The notes beneath the pieces are model-generated. The model made no database searches. It was not told where the DNA came from and saw only the letters and a list, made by a program, of their open reading frames with translations. Made by a program: the position numbers and the translations under genes. Below, in pieces: positions 3,154-9,400 of a DNA stretch of 30,201 bases (position 1 is its first letter; every line of letters begins with the position of its first letter). Origin of the DNA: a virus; the IMG/VR virus record IMGVR_UViG_3300028739_000021, positions 1-30,201 of that record. The stretch is one strand, 5' to 3'.

Positions 3154-4785
3154 TTAAATTTCTACTTTACATGAAAATTGAACATCACCAGCAACTGATA
3201 AGAAATATACTCCGAATTTTATTGTTATATTTGTTGCATCTACTGCTAATATTTGATTAGGTATTACATCAAACATTCCGCTATTAGTTCTAGCGGTAAC
3301 AGTGCATTTCCAGATAGATGGAGTAGAAACGCATCCATGGGAAATAGTACCTGACTTTTGACCATCGCTGGAAACAGCTACATTTCCAACGGCATATCCA
3401 TCTGTTTTTAATCCTGTGTTATTTGACCATTTAAATTTATTCAAACGATCTGTTCCGGTAACTGACAGAGTTCCTACTAATTTGTTGTTTGATATAACGA
3501 AAGGTCCACCACTTGCTCCGTCAGTTAAAGCTAAACAAATATTACTGTTAATATGCTTACCATTTGTTATTGATACGTTTTTAGTTTGATTATACAAACA
3601 ATCGCAGTTTGTTATATTGGTAAAACTGTTATTATCTTCTGTTACGTTATCAACCCAACTACCTAAATTTATTCCGTATCCACTGTACCCTATCTTATTA
3701 TTAGAAATAACTATGTCGTTTATCGCAGTTGGCGTTGACCCTGCATAGATACCTACGCCTGTACTTCCACCAGTTGCAGCAGCTATATAATTACCATTGA
3801 TTACAGCTTGCTGAACACCAGTTATTCCACCATTTAAATAAATACAAGAACTTCCGCATTGATCTAACATATTATTAGAAATATTAATAAATAATACATC
3901 TTGAACATTAACTTGGTACGATCCAGTGGTTATTAAAGTGCTATCTAATAACCATATTCCTTCTGCTCTTGCACCTACAACAGAAGAAGCAACCTTTACA
4001 CCTTGTCCGATTCCTCCCATATATGTACGTCTTACACCAGAATTTATTAATATTCCAGCTGTTGTTCTGCGTACGTGTACGCAATACGCACTAGCATTAG
4101 TATTTGTCATATAGCAATCTTCTATAAATGTATTTGAAGAATTTATTTCTATTATATCAGAAGAATTACTTGTTAAGTTTTCAAAATAACATTCAACAAC
4201 TTTATGCCCTAATCCATTTTGGAAATTCATAATTTTACCAGAAGTTCCACCATGTTTTAATGCAATTCCAACAAAACTAGCAAAGTAATTTGCAGTAACA
4301 TTAAACATATCACCTGCATTAGTTTTGTATATCATTGTTGATTGTGACCATGATTGCCCACCGACAAGCGTAGTGCTGTTTACAGAGATATTCAACGTAG
4401 ATGTTACCCTATATATACCATCTGGGAAATATATTGCACCTCCTGCATTTAATGCTGCTTGAATAGCACTTGTATCGTCTGCTATATTGTCACCAATTGC
4501 ACCATAATTCTTAACACTATTAATTTGACTATTCCACCTTGTCTTTTCAAAATCAGTTACAAACCTGTTATTTAAATCCTGCGATATAATGCTTGGTGGA
4601 TGGGTTAATGGGTGAATATATCCTTCATAATATCCCATATCATTCCATCTAGTAATTCCATTGCCTATTTTTTGTTTCCAAGGAACAGTATCTGTTACAT
4701 ATCCGATTTGTCCATCAGCTAGAATAGGATTAGCACTAGCCCATTCCGCTTCTATGTCTCTCCTTTGTTGCATTATATTACCCAT
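3154..4785 (-). CDS. Tailspike with Mtd_N-like attachment module and pectate-lyase-like beta-helix
   Basis: A 543-residue protein when started at ATG 4785. That start has GGAGGGGGAG just upstream, whereas an in-frame ATG at 4803 has no such site. Residues 1-55 (RRDIEAEWASANPIL... WKQKIGNGITRWNDM) are the same attachment module as in the next gene. From about residue 90 comes the classic beta-helix opening (VKNYGAIGDNIADDTSAIQAA... GGAIYFPDGIYRV), typical of Pectate_lyase_3 tailspikes. Repeated N-rich rungs follow (ISNNML, INGNYI, ISNNKIG, ITNGKHI). Such spikes usually bind or cleave surface polysaccharide; the catalytic residues cannot be assigned here. The start overlaps the upstream adaptor gene by 8 nt. 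Confidence 0.88.
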   Translation of the reverse strand: MGNIMQQRRDIEAEWASANPILADGQIGYVTDTVPWKQKIGNGITRWNDMGYYEGYIHPLTHPPSIISQDLNNRFVTDFEKTRWNSQINSVKNYGAIGDNIADDTSAIQAALNAGGAIYFPDGIYRVTSTLNISVNSTTLVGGQSWSQSTMIYKTNAGDMFNVTANYFASFVGIALKHGGTSGKIMNFQNGLGHKVVECYFENLTSNSSDIIEINSSNTFIEDCYMTNTNASAYCVHVRRTTAGILINSGVRRTYMGGIGQGVKVASSVVGARAEGIWLLDSTLITTGSYQVNVQDVLFINISNNMLDQCGSSCIYLNGGITGVQQAVINGNYIAAATGGSTGVGIYAGSTPTAINDIVISNNKIGYSGYGINLGSWVDNVTEDNNSFTNITNCDCLYNQTKNVSITNGKHINSNICLALTDGASGGPFVISNNKLVGTLSVTGTDRLNKFKWSNNTGLKTDGYAVGNVAVSSDGQKSGTISHGCVSTPSIWKCTVTARTNSGMFDVIPNQILAVDATNITIKFGVYFLSVAGDVQFSCKVEI

Positions 4786-5353
4786 TGGCTCCCCCTCCAT
4801 CATACTTTTGCTTGTCTAAATAAACGCTTCTAGAATTTCCACCATCAATAGATTTACTATCAATAGTACCAAACTTAATAGTATTTTCTAGTGCTGTTCC
4901 GTCTTCATTCCACCCTAGTACATAACCTGCTACTGGATTTGGTAGCACTTTACTTACTGAATCTTCGGAAGTAACCGAGAATTTTAATGTCCTGCTTAAT
5001 TCATCATGTAATTGTTGGTCAATAATAGTTGACTTATCCAATGATCCTTCAACTGTTTTTGCAAAGTACGCCCCTTGATTTGGTAGTGTAACCTCTTGCG
5101 TAATTGGTACTTGTCTAAAAATAGTTATTTTTGTAGTTGAAGCAATAGCTGATCCAGTTATTGGATATATAACATATCCACTTGATACGTTTACAGAGTA
5201 ATTAGATGTTAATAACGTGTCAATTCCTGTTTCTATATCTGTTAAAATAATTTGCAGGTCGCTAGATTTGAATATTTTAAATGTAAATGGGAATTGTTTG
5301 GTTAATGAGTTTCCTATATATGTTATTTTATTGGAACTATTTGTAACTGTCAT
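4778..5353 (-). CDS. T7 gp17-type tail-fibre N-terminal adaptor protein
   Basis: A 191-residue protein consisting almost wholly of the T7 tail-fibre N-terminal domain: YIGNSLTKQFPFTFKIFKSSDLQIILTD... followed by TKITIFRQVPITQEVTLPNQGAYFAKTVEGSLDKSTIIDQQL and HDELSRTLKF. In T7 this domain joins the fibre to the tail nozzle. Here it is a separate short protein, so it probably acts as the adaptor on which the spike and fibre (downstream genes with their own modules) are mounted. The ribosome binding site is AAGGAGG before ATG 5353. The gene is the first after the inserted rightward cassette and may need its own promoter or readthrough. Confidence 0.88.
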   Translation of the reverse strand: MTVTNSSNKITYIGNSLTKQFPFTFKIFKSSDLQIILTDIETGIDTLLTSNYSVNVSSGYVIYPITGSAIASTTKITIFRQVPITQEVTLPNQGAYFAKTVEGSLDKSTIIDQQLHDELSRTLKFSVTSEDSVSKVLPNPVAGYVLGWNEDGTALENTIKFGTIDSKSIDGGNSRSVYLDKQKYDGGGANG

Positions 5354-5386
5354 GTATATTCCTCCTTGTTTATTTATAATTATACA

Positions 5387-5406
5387 GTATAATCAATGAA
5401 TTATAC
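5387..5406. promoter_or_regulatory. Inverted repeat in the divergent intergenic region
   Basis: GTATAAT - CAATGA - ATTATAC is a perfect 7-bp inverted repeat with a 6-nt loop, between the leftward tail-adaptor gene and the rightward regulatory cassette. Each arm contains a -10-like TATAAT on one strand, so it may be an operator over a leftward tail-gene promoter, or simply A/T-rich sequence. No convincing -35 was found for the leftward direction. Confidence 0.35.
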
Positions 5407-5418
5407 ATGTAAATTTAT

Positions 5419-5447
5419 TTGACAATACGTACCGAGTACGATATAAT
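5419..5447 (+). promoter_or_regulatory. Perfect consensus promoter of the rightward RHH-Rha cassette
   Basis: TTGACA (5419-5424) and TATAAT (5442-5447) are separated by exactly 17 nt. Transcription would begin near 5454, right against the GAGAGGTGAT ribosome binding site (5455-5464) of the RHH gene, so the leader is almost absent. Such a strong unassisted promoter implies tight repression during growth or in a lysogen. Confidence 0.85.
5428..5440. promoter_or_regulatory. Candidate operator inside the promoter spacer
   Basis: CGTAC-CGA-GTACG, a perfect 5-bp inverted repeat, lies wholly between -35 and -10 of the cassette promoter. A protein bound here would block RNA polymerase. The first gene of the cassette encodes a ribbon-helix-helix protein, the type of repressor (Arc, Mnt, MetJ) that binds short palindromes, so autorepression is the obvious inference. 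Confidence 0.6.
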
Positions 5448-5469
5448 AACGAATGAGAGGTGATAATAA

Positions 5470-5613
5470 ATGCAAACAACAGACAGGATGGAAATAAGAT
5501 TACCAAAAGAACTAAAAAAAGAATTTAAAAAATGGTGTGACGAAACCGTTACAACTCCAAGCGATGAAATTAGACGGTATATTGCTAGATTAATTAAGAA
5601 AGAAGGTAAATAA
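5470..5613 (+). CDS. Arc-like ribbon-helix-helix repressor
   Basis: A 47-residue protein. DRMEIRLPKELKKEFKKWCD gives the RHH beta strand (MEIRLP), the first helix and the start of the turn. TTPSDEIRRYIARLIKKEG gives the second helix, with a serine near the helix start as in many RHH proteins. Length and layout match Arc (53 residues). Two such chains would form the DNA-binding dimer. It is the first gene after the consensus promoter, with a palindrome in the promoter spacer, and lies 1 nt before the Rha gene. Likely role: autorepressor of this cassette. Family assignment is from pattern only. Confidence 0.8.
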   Translation: MQTTDRMEIRLPKELKKEFKKWCDETVTTPSDEIRRYIARLIKKEGK

Positions 5614-5614
5614 T

Positions 5615-6241
5615 ATGAATGAATTATTAACAATAGGAAATAATAACAAAGCGGTAACTAGCAGTAGGAAAATTGCTAAAAATTTTGGTAAAGAGCATAA
5701 GCACATAATGGAATCAATAAGGGTATTAGAAACTCAAATTAGTACGGTCGAATTTTCGACCCTATTTGAAACAAGGAGTTACGTAGCTTCAAACGGAAAA
5801 GTAAACCCAGAATATATTATAAACAGAGACGGATTTACATTGCTTGCAATGGGTTTCACTGGTAAAAATGCTACCGAATGGAAGATGAAGTATATCAAAG
5901 CGTTTAATAGTATGGAAAAGAAATTAACAGTTATTTATGAAAATGAAGTTAATAGTAAAATTAAAGAATTAAATACCACATTAGACGAAGTAAAACAATA
6001 TTACAGGTTTCCACATTCGGCAAAGATCAACTTTAACAAGCGTATAAAATCAAAGCTCGGCGAAGAATGTACAAAATCGGAAGTAGAAGACGTTAAAGAA
6101 TATGTATTTACTTTATTGGCAATTGACACTTGGGAAGATTTGCCGTTAGACAAGCGAACTAATGTGATTGATTTAATTGATAGAAGATGTAATATTATTG
6201 TAAATACTCGTAAAAACTTATTTAATTGGGATAAAATGTAG
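5615..6241 (+). CDS. Rha-family phage regulatory protein with antirepressor-like C-terminus
   Basis: A 208-residue protein. Residues 12-105 fit the Rha (pRha) domain: VTSSRKIAKNFGKEHKHIMESIR, a middle strand ending in YIINRDGFTLLAMGF, then GKNATEWKMKYIKAFNSME. The C-terminal half has a helical linker (NEVNSKIKELNTTLDEVKQY) and a segment KINFNKRIKSKLG... YVFTLLAIDTWEDLP resembling the ORF6C-type domain of phage antirepressors. Rha proteins are known from temperate phages, where they affect lysogenic or lytic control. It is co-transcribed with the RHH repressor and is probably the main effector of the cassette. It is placed among late tail genes, on the opposite strand. Confidence 0.85.
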   Translation: MNELLTIGNNNKAVTSSRKIAKNFGKEHKHIMESIRVLETQISTVEFSTLFETRSYVASNGKVNPEYIINRDGFTLLAMGFTGKNATEWKMKYIKAFNSMEKKLTVIYENEVNSKIKELNTTLDEVKQYYRFPHSAKINFNKRIKSKLGEECTKSEVEDVKEYVFTLLAIDTWEDLPLDKRTNVIDLIDRRCNIIVNTRKNLFNWDKM

Positions 6242-6275
6242 TATAGTTTAAATAAAAAAAGGGGGGTGATTTTAG

Positions 6276-6425
6276 GTGAGTTGTTTAGTAGGATTGCTAT
6301 GCAGTATAATAACAGTATTAATAATGCCATGGGGAAAGGTTGGCCCTTTATTTGGAGCGATAATGGCAACAGCGGTATTTTATATAGCTACTATATGGTG
6401 TAGTATTGAAATGGATGAAAATTAG
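6276..6425 (+). CDS. 49-residue double-spanning membrane protein
   Basis: It starts at GTG 6276 with a very strong ribosome binding site (GGGGGGTGAT, 6261-6270) and ends in TAG within the terminator stem. Two hydrophobic segments, about residues 3-19 (CLVGLLCSIITVLIMPW) and 24-43 (PLFGAIMATAVFYIATIWCS), are joined by a short GKVG turn, giving a helical hairpin with a negative tail (EMDEN). No family was recognised. As the last gene of a repressor/Rha cassette it could be a superinfection-exclusion protein, comparable in position class to the membrane protein SieA of the P22 immI region, or a small holin. Both are guesses from topology and context. Confidence 0.65.
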   Translation: MSCLVGLLCSIITVLIMPWGKVGPLFGAIMATAVFYIATIWCSIEMDEN

Positions 6426-6449
6426 AGAGCGAATTAACGCTCTCTTTTT
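6424..6449. terminator. Shared bidirectional terminator between converging genes
   Basis: AGAGAGCG - AATTAA - CGCTCTCT followed by TTTTT. The stop codons of both converging genes lie in or next to the hairpin (TAG 6423-6425, TAA 6448-6450). It should end the rightward cassette. Leftward, it may attenuate transcription from the ejection genes into the region opposite the cassette, although the T-run on that strand is weak. Confidence 0.8.
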
Positions 6450-9400
6450 ATTTGCCTAATGCTTTTAAAATTATAGCATTATGTTTTATTTGTAATTCAT
6501 CAATTTTAGATCTCTTAGTATCAGCATCTAGTTTTGTATCTGCTAAAACTAATTTAACCTTCTTGTAATTATCTTGTAGTTTTTCATTTGCCGTTCTATA
6601 TTTTCTTAATTCCCCTGCAACTACTCCTTTCTTACCAGTTTCATCGTGTTCCTGTTCTAATGTTTTCATTTTGTCATAAAATTGTTCTGTACTTTGTGAT
6701 AGTTTACCTGCATTTTTACTAAATAATGTTTTAATTACTGGTTGTTCTGTAAATTGTTTTGTAGGTAATTCATTTTTAGTACCAGATATTTCATTAATCA
6801 TTTTATCAGCACCTAATACCATAAACCCTGCAAGACCGCCACCTATATTGGAAATTGCATTATCAATTAACATTGGAGATTTATTTGTTTTATCTCCTAT
6901 TAATTTAGCTGTTTCGGATGTGTAAGAGTTAAATTGCTTGCTTGGTGTTGTATTTTTCAATGATTGCGGTACAATTTGTTTCTCTTTGAATACAGAGTAG
7001 CCACTAACCCATTCTCCAACCGTTAAGGCTGTAGTAGGAATTAAGTTAGGAACAAAACTACCACCAGTATTTTGCAAAAACTTTTGTATGCTTCTAGGAT
7101 TAACATTATACATGTGTCTAATTGCTTCTTCGGTAGTATTGGCAAACGTATTAAGTCCTAGTGGCTTTGGTATTCTTAATAATTTATCGCCAGTTCTAAT
7201 AATCCAAAAAGTATCTTTTTCATAATCAGGAAGTTCTTGAATATCTTTGTCGTTTAATCCTAGTAAAGTAATAACGACAGTTGGCAATACCAAGGCCATA
7301 GTTATTTTTTTACTAACTCCTTTAGGGTCTTTGTAAAATTCGCGGGCCATTTTATCAGTACCTTGGATTGCAGCATTGAAGAACGGTATCATTTGATTAA
7401 TGACTTGACCTTCTGATCCATGACGTGAAAAGTTAAGTGTAATTTCTTGCGCAGCTAATGCAGCTTCTTCGATTGATTTACCTGCTTTTTTTGCTTTCAT
7501 GTATTCGCCTAGTCTTGTGCCTGTCTCTGACATGTCGGTTAACCATTGTAATCCTCCTAGTAATGATCTAAACGCTTCTTTAGGTAATTTTGATGGTTCT
7601 ATAATTGCTGTTTTTCCCATAGTTTTAATAGATTCAATTGGATTTTCAAATGACTTACCTTTCATAGCATCTTGTATTTTTGTATTCATAGCTTGTCTAT
7701 CGGAGTTTAGGTATGACGACATTATTGCACCGCTTGATTTGTACTCATTGTACATTTTTTCATTACCAAACATTGCAAATACACCTCGTACAGTATCAAC
7801 AACGGGAACAAATCCATGTTTTGAATATACATATGCTTCTAATGTATCTTTAATCGGATTCTTAATAAAGAACTCTGGACTTAAAATTGCCCCTGTACGC
7901 AACCATTTTGCTTGATATGACATTAGCTTTACCATTGCATTACTACTTGATTCACTCACTGACATAATTGCTCTGTAGTATTCTGGTTCTGTGGCGTATG
8001 CCTGTTTTTTACCACCTGTCATTACTGTAAATATGCTATTTTTAGCATCTGCATCGCCTGGTACTTTTTCAACAAAACGTCCTGCTCCGTTAACGTCTGA
8101 TAATTTAACAAACGCTTGGGCTACCCTATTCCTTTCAATAACATTTAACGTCGAATATGTGTCGATTATAGCTGATTCAAGGGGACTAATAACCGATCTA
8201 GCTGATCCGTATTCAGTTAGCTTTTGTTGCTTATCTGAAATGTTACCAAATCCTTCTCCTTTTCCCTTGCCTTTTACTTTTGACACTGTGTCCTCGAAAT
8301 CTCTAGACATATGTGCATAGTTTTGATTATTTTTTTTCATTTCTGCATATTCTGTTGCACTGGTTAATCCTTCTGCAACTCTCATTCTCATAATGTTATC
8401 ATTGTAATTATAAAAGTCTTGTGCAATATCTTCAAATTCCTTAGGTGAATCTTTTAAAACAATTGCAGCATCTTCCTTACTCATTGAACCTACATATTTT
8501 TCTTTAGTTTTTTGTATTTCTGTTTGGCGTTTTGCAACTAAATAAGTGTCAAATGCTTCATTCCAATTTTTAAAGTTTCCTTCTTTTAGGAATGTTTGAT
8601 ATTTTTTGTCTGTTACTTCACTACTGATTCTATCTATAATTGATCTAAAAGTTACATCGTGAACCAATGCACCACCAAAATGAACGTTTAACAATTCAAT
8701 AGCCATTACAGGATTTAATTCATTTACTATAATATCAGCTTTAGCCATTGCGGAATTGTTTGCCAATCTTGCTAATTTTTCTGGATTATCTTTTGTTCCT
8801 AATTTAGTACCAGTTGCTTTTTCAAACGCTTTTACAAATCTAGTTAATCCAAACTTATCATCTACCATTTTTTCGTAAAACTTAACTCCGACTTCCTCTG
8901 CACGTTTTAAAATTGTATTTTCGTGTTCATAGCCAAATGATAATCCACTACGAGCCCTTGCAATAGATGGTTGTGCATACCATGCTCGAATCTTATTACC
9001 AATGTTTTCTACCGACTTAAATAGTTTTTTATCAGCGGATAACTTAGCAACAAATTCTGGGCCATAACTAGGGAAATTATTTAATGCTTCTTGCTTATTG
9101 ATTAGGTATTGCCTAGTAAACTCTGCAACTCCTTCTGCTCTGCGCTGTTCTGGTGTATATGAGTCGTATTCTTTTGCTCCTGACCACATTTTATCAGCGG
9201 TTCCTATTAATTCAGCATCGTGACCAGTGATTTTTAGTTTTGAATCTACATGATGACCTATTTCGTGGGACATTGTGTCAAAGTCACCATAGTTTCTTGT
9301 TCTTGCAACTCCTGCTTCTGTTTTATATAATCCCTCATAGGTTTTAACGCCTAATCTTCCTGTTCTTGCAGGAACTAAAGCATTAATGTCTTTCATTATT

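Follow-up and report, generated by a model that had tools for sequence, protein, structure and literature searches.

A possible counterpart of the P22 ant moron site in podoviruses of Negativicutes-like hosts, with a recurrent convergent membrane-protein gene

The locus raises the question of what role is played by a three-gene operon (RHH-like, Rha and small membrane proteins) that separates the ejection gene of a podovirus from its tail genes and lies on the strand opposite to the late genes. The preliminary description of this DNA read the operon as a cassette with the same position, order and logic as the immI region of phage P22. We find this reading to be only partly right, with the site and the protein classes in agreement. 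The membrane gene is the recurring element and the RHH-Rha pair is not, a point missed so far. The explanation that we prefer, and hold with middling confidence, is a P22-type ant moron site in Negativicutes-like podoviruses, where a SieA-like membrane gene is the core and RHH-Rha a local addition.

The window, meaning the whole stretch of DNA analysed, is the entire IMG/VR record of 30,201 bases, and near-identical copies (99.6 to 100%) are found in other contigs. The late genes on its minus strand run from the terminase through tail parts to the ejection-type protein, followed by the tail protein and the tailspike-like protein (Table 1). With the ejection protein as query, the relatives found include L010 (70 to 74% identity) and L022 (56%), which are viral loci, and L024 (37%), a prophage of Sporomusa silvacetica. 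Matches occur in 36 of the 380 genomes of the Sporomusa class, and the search added at least 80 further viral loci to the viral set. The Sporomusa locus sits inside a bacterial contig, and the host search found no link beyond this prophage. The window phage may be temperate, as suggested by this location and by the HTH_3 repressor-like genes carried by L010 and L022, set against the lack of a tyrosine integrase in all four phage records searched. A serine recombinase was likewise not found among the 23 families from a family scan of 36 chosen ORFs. The single DUF7666 match among the scanned ORFs probably belongs to a 287-aa ORF with many LASSGxYAK-like repeats in another locus (L149:8841-9701).

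Table 1. Features of the cassette and its neighbouring late genes, in window positions
Feature	Position	Strand	Remarks
Tailspike-like protein, 549 aa	3154..4803	-	Pect-lyase_RHGA_epim; Mtd_N sub-threshold
Tail protein, 191 aa	4778..5353	-	N-terminal part of phrog_1640 and other tail fibre families
Candidate tail-gene promoter TTTACA-16-TATACT	5386..5413	-	10/12; back to back with cassette promoter; pattern only
Cassette promoter TTGACA-17-TATAAT	5419..5447	+	sigma-70 consensus 12/12; pattern only
Palindrome CGTAC-CGA-GTACG (CGTACCGAGTACG)	5428..5440	.	middle of the 17-nt promoter spacer; proposed RHH operator
RHH-like protein, 47 aa, proposed autorepressor	5470..5613	+	ribosome site GAGAGGTGATAATAA
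Rha-family protein, 208 aa, proposed antirepressor-type regulator	5615..6241	+	PF09669, TIGR02681, phrog_518, phrog_373
Membrane protein, 49 aa, proposed exclusion factor	6276..6425	+	GTG start; ribosome site AGGGGGGTGA; two hydrophobic segments; sieA position
Terminator stem between cassette and ejection gene	6424..6445	.	T run on cassette strand
Ejection-type protein, 1661 aa	6448..11433	-	Peptidase_M15_3, SLT and LPD38 domains

All the parts that had been described for the cassette are present, from the consensus promoter over the RHH-like, Rha and membrane protein genes to the terminator, on the strand opposite to the late genes. A promoter scan of positions 4700 to 6700 gave 6 matches of at least 9/12 against 10.2 expected, so that only the perfect score stands out, and the cassette promoter is the sole 12/12 match. 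The range described earlier (5387-6449) also covers the candidate divergent tail-gene promoter, and the -35 boxes of the two promoters lie about 5 bp apart. A perfect palindrome with 7-bp arms (ATTATAC-A-GTATAAT, 5379-5393) covers the -10 box of the candidate tail-gene promoter and may be either a second regulator site or a coincidence of AT-rich DNA. The palindrome in the cassette promoter spacer exists as a single exact copy in the window; it is also found in G381 and is absent from the relatives G382 and G383. By chance, about 3% of 17-nt stretches hold an inverted repeat of this size (5-bp arms), and the role of the palindrome as an RHH operator is for this reason at most suggestive. The terminator stem has z values of -4.3 when read on the cassette strand and -5.0 on that of the late genes, and a similar stem closes the membrane gene in L010 and L022.

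The 47-aa protein had been described as an Arc-sized RHH protein, of which the size and the likeness to Arc stand, whereas the family matches are sub-threshold. The best Pfam matches, RHH_5 (E 7.6e-4) and RHH_1 (E 0.007), both fall below the curated cut-off, and there are sub-threshold matches to the RelB and VapB antitoxin families. A single comparison with P22 Arc yields 26% identity over the whole length (E 4e-5); the Pfam Arc family (PF03869) is not matched. The single-sequence AlphaFold monomer (mean pLDDT 71.7, pTM 0.42) shows an extended start and two helices, at residues 13-25 and 31-45, with the strand not assigned. Arc (1par) is the top Foldseek match of this model at a non-significant E of 0.55, none of the 36 matches reaching E<=0.001, and a phmmer search against PDB sequences returned no RHH match. 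The preliminary description had taken a missing RHH fold as evidence against its own reading; with two helices predicted, the fold is likely only, and we regard the protein, with some reserve, as a likely RHH protein.

The 208-aa protein is, by its family matches, certainly a member of the Rha family. PF09669 covers residues 15-102 (E 2e-27, 95.8 bits against a cut-off of 29.9), and TIGR02681 is matched at E 5e-28 (97.2 bits against 45.95). Residues 1-189 match phrog_373, which is labelled anti-repressor and backs the proposed antirepressor class; phrog_518 is also matched. P22 Ant, which carries PF10547 and PF10548, shows no detectable similarity to it. The N-terminal part of the Rha model is well predicted, pLDDT drops to about 42-64 from residue 131, and the C-terminal half has no clear fold in the model. 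None of the 535 Foldseek matches reaches E<=0.001, and the weak ones listed are largely winged-helix regulators. Rha as a strand-reversed insert among tail genes has a precedent, since the Escherichia phages Rao1 (L031:2456-2998) and IME253 (L232:1501-1998) each carry a lone Rha gene on the opposite strand within the tail cluster, near HNH endonuclease genes. Unlike in the window, these Rha genes have no annotated RHH or membrane gene partner.

In P22 (NC_002371) the late genes are on the plus strand and the gene order is 16 (+), sieA (-), orf59a (-), mnt (-), arc (+), ant (+) and 9 (+). The window cassette agrees with this layout, as had been proposed, in its site between an ejection gene (16 in P22) and a tailspike gene (9 in P22), and in a membrane gene that stands at the sieA position. 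It resembles immI further in having the Arc-sized RHH-like protein followed by an antirepressor-class gene, and in the palindrome within its promoter spacer, where P22 has the annotated Oarc in the Pant spacer. The proposed identity of order and logic fails. In P22, arc and ant are transcribed with the late genes, beside the divergent mnt and with the antisense RNA sar at the arc-ant junction; in the window, all three genes, RHH and Rha among them, have the direction opposite to the late genes, and no equivalent of mnt is seen in the ORF list around the cassette. The protein families differ as well, with PF03869 for Arc and PF10547/PF10548 for Ant in P22, as opposed to an RHH-like protein without PF03869 and a Rha protein with PF09669 in the window.

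Linkage between RHH and Rha in related genomes, which the preliminary description had put forward as the point to check, was not found in the loci examined. Neither gene was detected in 101 related ejection loci (734,820 bases), many of which extend only about 1.5 kb beyond the ejection gene, and the same search finds both in the window. From the Rha side, 578 loci were confirmed and 80 of them were used, of which 79 gave an ORF and 61 of these gave 70 upstream ORFs. A phmmer search of these 70 ORFs (61 of the 79 loci) with the RHH-like protein was significant only for the window lineage, the next match having E 0.038, and hmmscan of the upstream ORFs showed mostly HTH families and no RHH family among the 25 of 86 families listed. 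The RHH search gave 12 weak matches in the 380 Sporomusa-class genomes, none of them with Rha within about 3 kb, 2 weak matches in phages and 1 in plasmids. By eye, a weakly matching RHH ORF and a Bro-N-like ORF are on opposite strands in L239, and another RHH ORF lies near an integrase-like ORF (L241).

In the view of the preliminary description, the locus is functionally analogous to P22 immI, with RHH and Rha as a lysogeny-control switch and the membrane gene as incidental; this view draws on the shared site and on the placing of an RHH-like and an antirepressor-class protein behind a single promoter with an operator-like element. According to PMC11016777, the lysis-lysogeny decision of P22 is modulated by immI. 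We consider this view unlikely, given the opposite orientation, the absence of mnt, and the RHH-Rha pair being found in none of the 101 related loci, whereas the membrane gene recurs.

The membrane gene shows a different distribution. L010, L022 and L024 each have the ejection gene followed directly by a convergent small gene with two hydrophobic segments, coding for 55, 116 and 65 aa, respectively. We counted convergent genes located -30 to +100 nt from the ejection stop in a sample of 102 loci, 99 of them with at least 400 nt past the stop and grouped into 71 clusters (85% identity). A convergent small gene with at least two hydrophobic segments follows the ejection stop in 21 of the 99 loci and 14 of the 71 clusters examined. 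The same gene type is found at 3 of 149 other gene ends in these loci, two of the three being near-identical loci (Fisher p 1.4e-5, clusters against unclustered controls). The window was counted apart, by hand, as a further positive, because an overlapping spurious 122-aa sense ORF hides its gene from the automatic filter. Left out before the count were L116 (same gene as L024), L118-L120 (pieces), L136, L142, L144, L145 and L147 (broken or doubtful ends), and L152-L157 (the window, L010 and L022 again, as the same records or close copies). The ejection gene was taken as the longest sense ORF, an uncertain choice where this ORF is short, as in L176, L178 and L230, and these were counted as misses. 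The convergent membrane gene is clade-limited, since 57 of the 71 clusters have none, including close ones such as L125-L129.

The dN/dS values of the membrane genes are 0.20 and 0.17 in two pairs, a third pair being saturated, and the genes are therefore under selection as proteins. Promoter patterns upstream of the genes exceed those in shuffles: 5 of 14 cases have at least 10/12 (0.5 expected) and 9 of 14 at least 9/12 (2.8 expected); L010 and L022 share one promoter, and L192 and any later case were left out of this scoring. The proteins are mostly unalignable to one another, and the 49-aa protein of the window was found only in 3 near-identical contigs. Judged by their endings, there are at least two sub-types: those of L115, L121 and L159 have a GSHGxxD ending in common, and in those of L024, L132, L163 and L173 the second hydrophobic segment is followed by a tail of aromatic and basic residues. 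A PADLOC scan of 7 proteins gave no match. In L211, opposite-strand ORFs of 97 and 259 aa lie about 0.12-1.34 kb past the ejection stop, the longer of which may be a homing-type endonuclease by its sequence and thus another type of insertion at the same site.

Small proteins with two hydrophobic segments next to the late genes could also be antiholin-like lysis regulators and not exclusion factors. The next sense genes in the Sporomusa prophage L024 and in L117 look lysis-like by eye, with a 147-aa membrane protein followed by a lysin-like ORF, and in the lytic Bacillus phage Pascal the ejection gene is succeeded by genes for an antiholin and a holin. The membrane genes counted here, however, run against the late operon, several of them with sigma-70-type promoters of their own, and the next genes in the window, L010 and L022 are tail and not lysis genes, which makes a lysis role improbable. 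To a similar degree, we doubt that the cassette sets the amount of tail protein, either through RHH binding between the back-to-back promoters or through antisense transcription from the cassette. The closely spaced divergent promoters would suit such a control, but the tail promoter is a 10/12 pattern match only and relatives have the same gene order without RHH. A toxin-antitoxin-like addiction unit, with RHH as the antitoxin and the membrane protein as the toxin, would fit the sub-threshold RelB and VapB matches and the small hydrophobic partner, but is very improbable with the Rha gene placed between the two and with relatives carrying the membrane gene without RHH.

The preferred reading as an ant moron site draws on two features of P22-like phages. 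The region between genes 16 and 9 in these phages is called the ant moron, with ten types in sixteen genomes reported in PMC2629481, which covers P22-like phages and prophages of enteric and insect-symbiont hosts. The likeness to the region portrayed there lies in variable, independently expressed genes between the ejection and tailspike genes that differ among related phages. The window cassette fits this kind of region, having its own promoter and terminator, a position as an insertion in the late operon, and variability among relatives. It differs in that the comparisons made show no relationship of the phages studied here to P22, and in having a membrane gene as the recurring element. The second feature is sieA, whose product blocks DNA injection in P22 according to PMC10883804, and which is adjacent to and convergent with the ejection gene (16 in P22), as the membrane gene is in the window. 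P22 SieA has 164 residues and matches the phrog_7745 family, whereas the membrane proteins of the window and its relatives have 49-116 residues; those of the window, L010, L022 and L024 do not match phrog_7745, and the membrane proteins scanned gave no match to exclusion families.

The pair L010 and L022 gives a view of how the site changes. Along the ejection gene, DNA identity is 87-99% in the central part and 52-74% over the C-terminal half; it is 34-48% in the membrane gene, returns to 87% from the shared promoter on, drops again to 57-78% at the fibre gene start, and is 93-99% over most of the rest. The C-terminal half of the ejection gene and the membrane gene therefore differ as one block in this one phage pair, with the right end of the block between promoter and start codon. 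Taken over all 120 pairs, membrane protein similarity and identity of the ejection C-terminus are uncorrelated (Spearman 0.009, p 0.92), and we reject a general link between the two. Five of the six pairs with at least 72% identity in the ejection C-terminus have related membrane proteins, the exception being the window and L010, whose C-termini are 76% identical and whose membrane proteins are unrelated. Within the ejection gene, a further stretch (L010:6607-7094, L022:6251-6828) has 39-49% identity between flanks of 80-92% and 87%; by eye it reads as peptidase M15-type in L010 and NlpC/P60-type in L022, which suggests an exchange of the lytic domain of the ejection protein.

We propose that the carrier is a podovirus whose relatives infect Sporomusa-like Negativicutes, and that the cassette is a moron, i.e. 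an operon with expression of its own, inserted between the ejection and tail genes in the direction opposite to the late genes. The core of the moron would be the site just downstream of and convergent with the ejection gene, occupied in many relatives by one small membrane-protein gene; in the window lineage this single-gene version would have been replaced by the three-gene operon. Negativicutes have two membranes, and a periplasm-crossing conduit as in P22 is therefore plausible. The membrane proteins, residing in the host inner membrane, would hinder the ejection proteins of a related second phage from delivering DNA, as SieA does in P22, and by this analogy the lone gene of the relatives may block injection by competing phages. 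In the window, the layout suggests that the RHH protein binds the palindrome between the -35 and -10 boxes and shuts off its own strong promoter, so that Rha and membrane protein would be made in a burst early after infection and at a low level later. Rha, whose domain family occurs in phage antirepressors, would have a phage repressor or promoter as its target. More tentatively, and with considerable doubt, we propose a so far unrecognised class of small exclusion proteins in podoviruses of Negativicutes and some other hosts, encoded convergently to the ejection gene, exchanged with the C-terminal half of the ejection protein, arisen separately from P22 SieA at the same place, and placed under an RHH-Rha switch in the window phage.

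Among the best-matching papers of the literature searched, with subscription papers mostly outside it, none describes the membrane gene in Negativicutes podoviruses or a Rha-type cassette at the ejection/tail site. Of the two, the membrane gene that recurs convergent with the ejection gene is of greater interest; the Rha cassette would add a type of regulator to the P22-style site. SieA-like genes are reported only from enterobacterial genera in PMC10883804, which does not settle how the interaction of SieA with the ejection proteins is maintained in the face of their diversity. If the membrane proteins found here act in the same manner, the small membrane and ejection protein pairs from other phages would offer a test bed for this interaction. 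If the membrane proteins act like SieA, their diversity could be found by looking directly downstream of ejection genes, and exclusion aimed at the injection apparatus would have been invented repeatedly, in linkage with its target gene.
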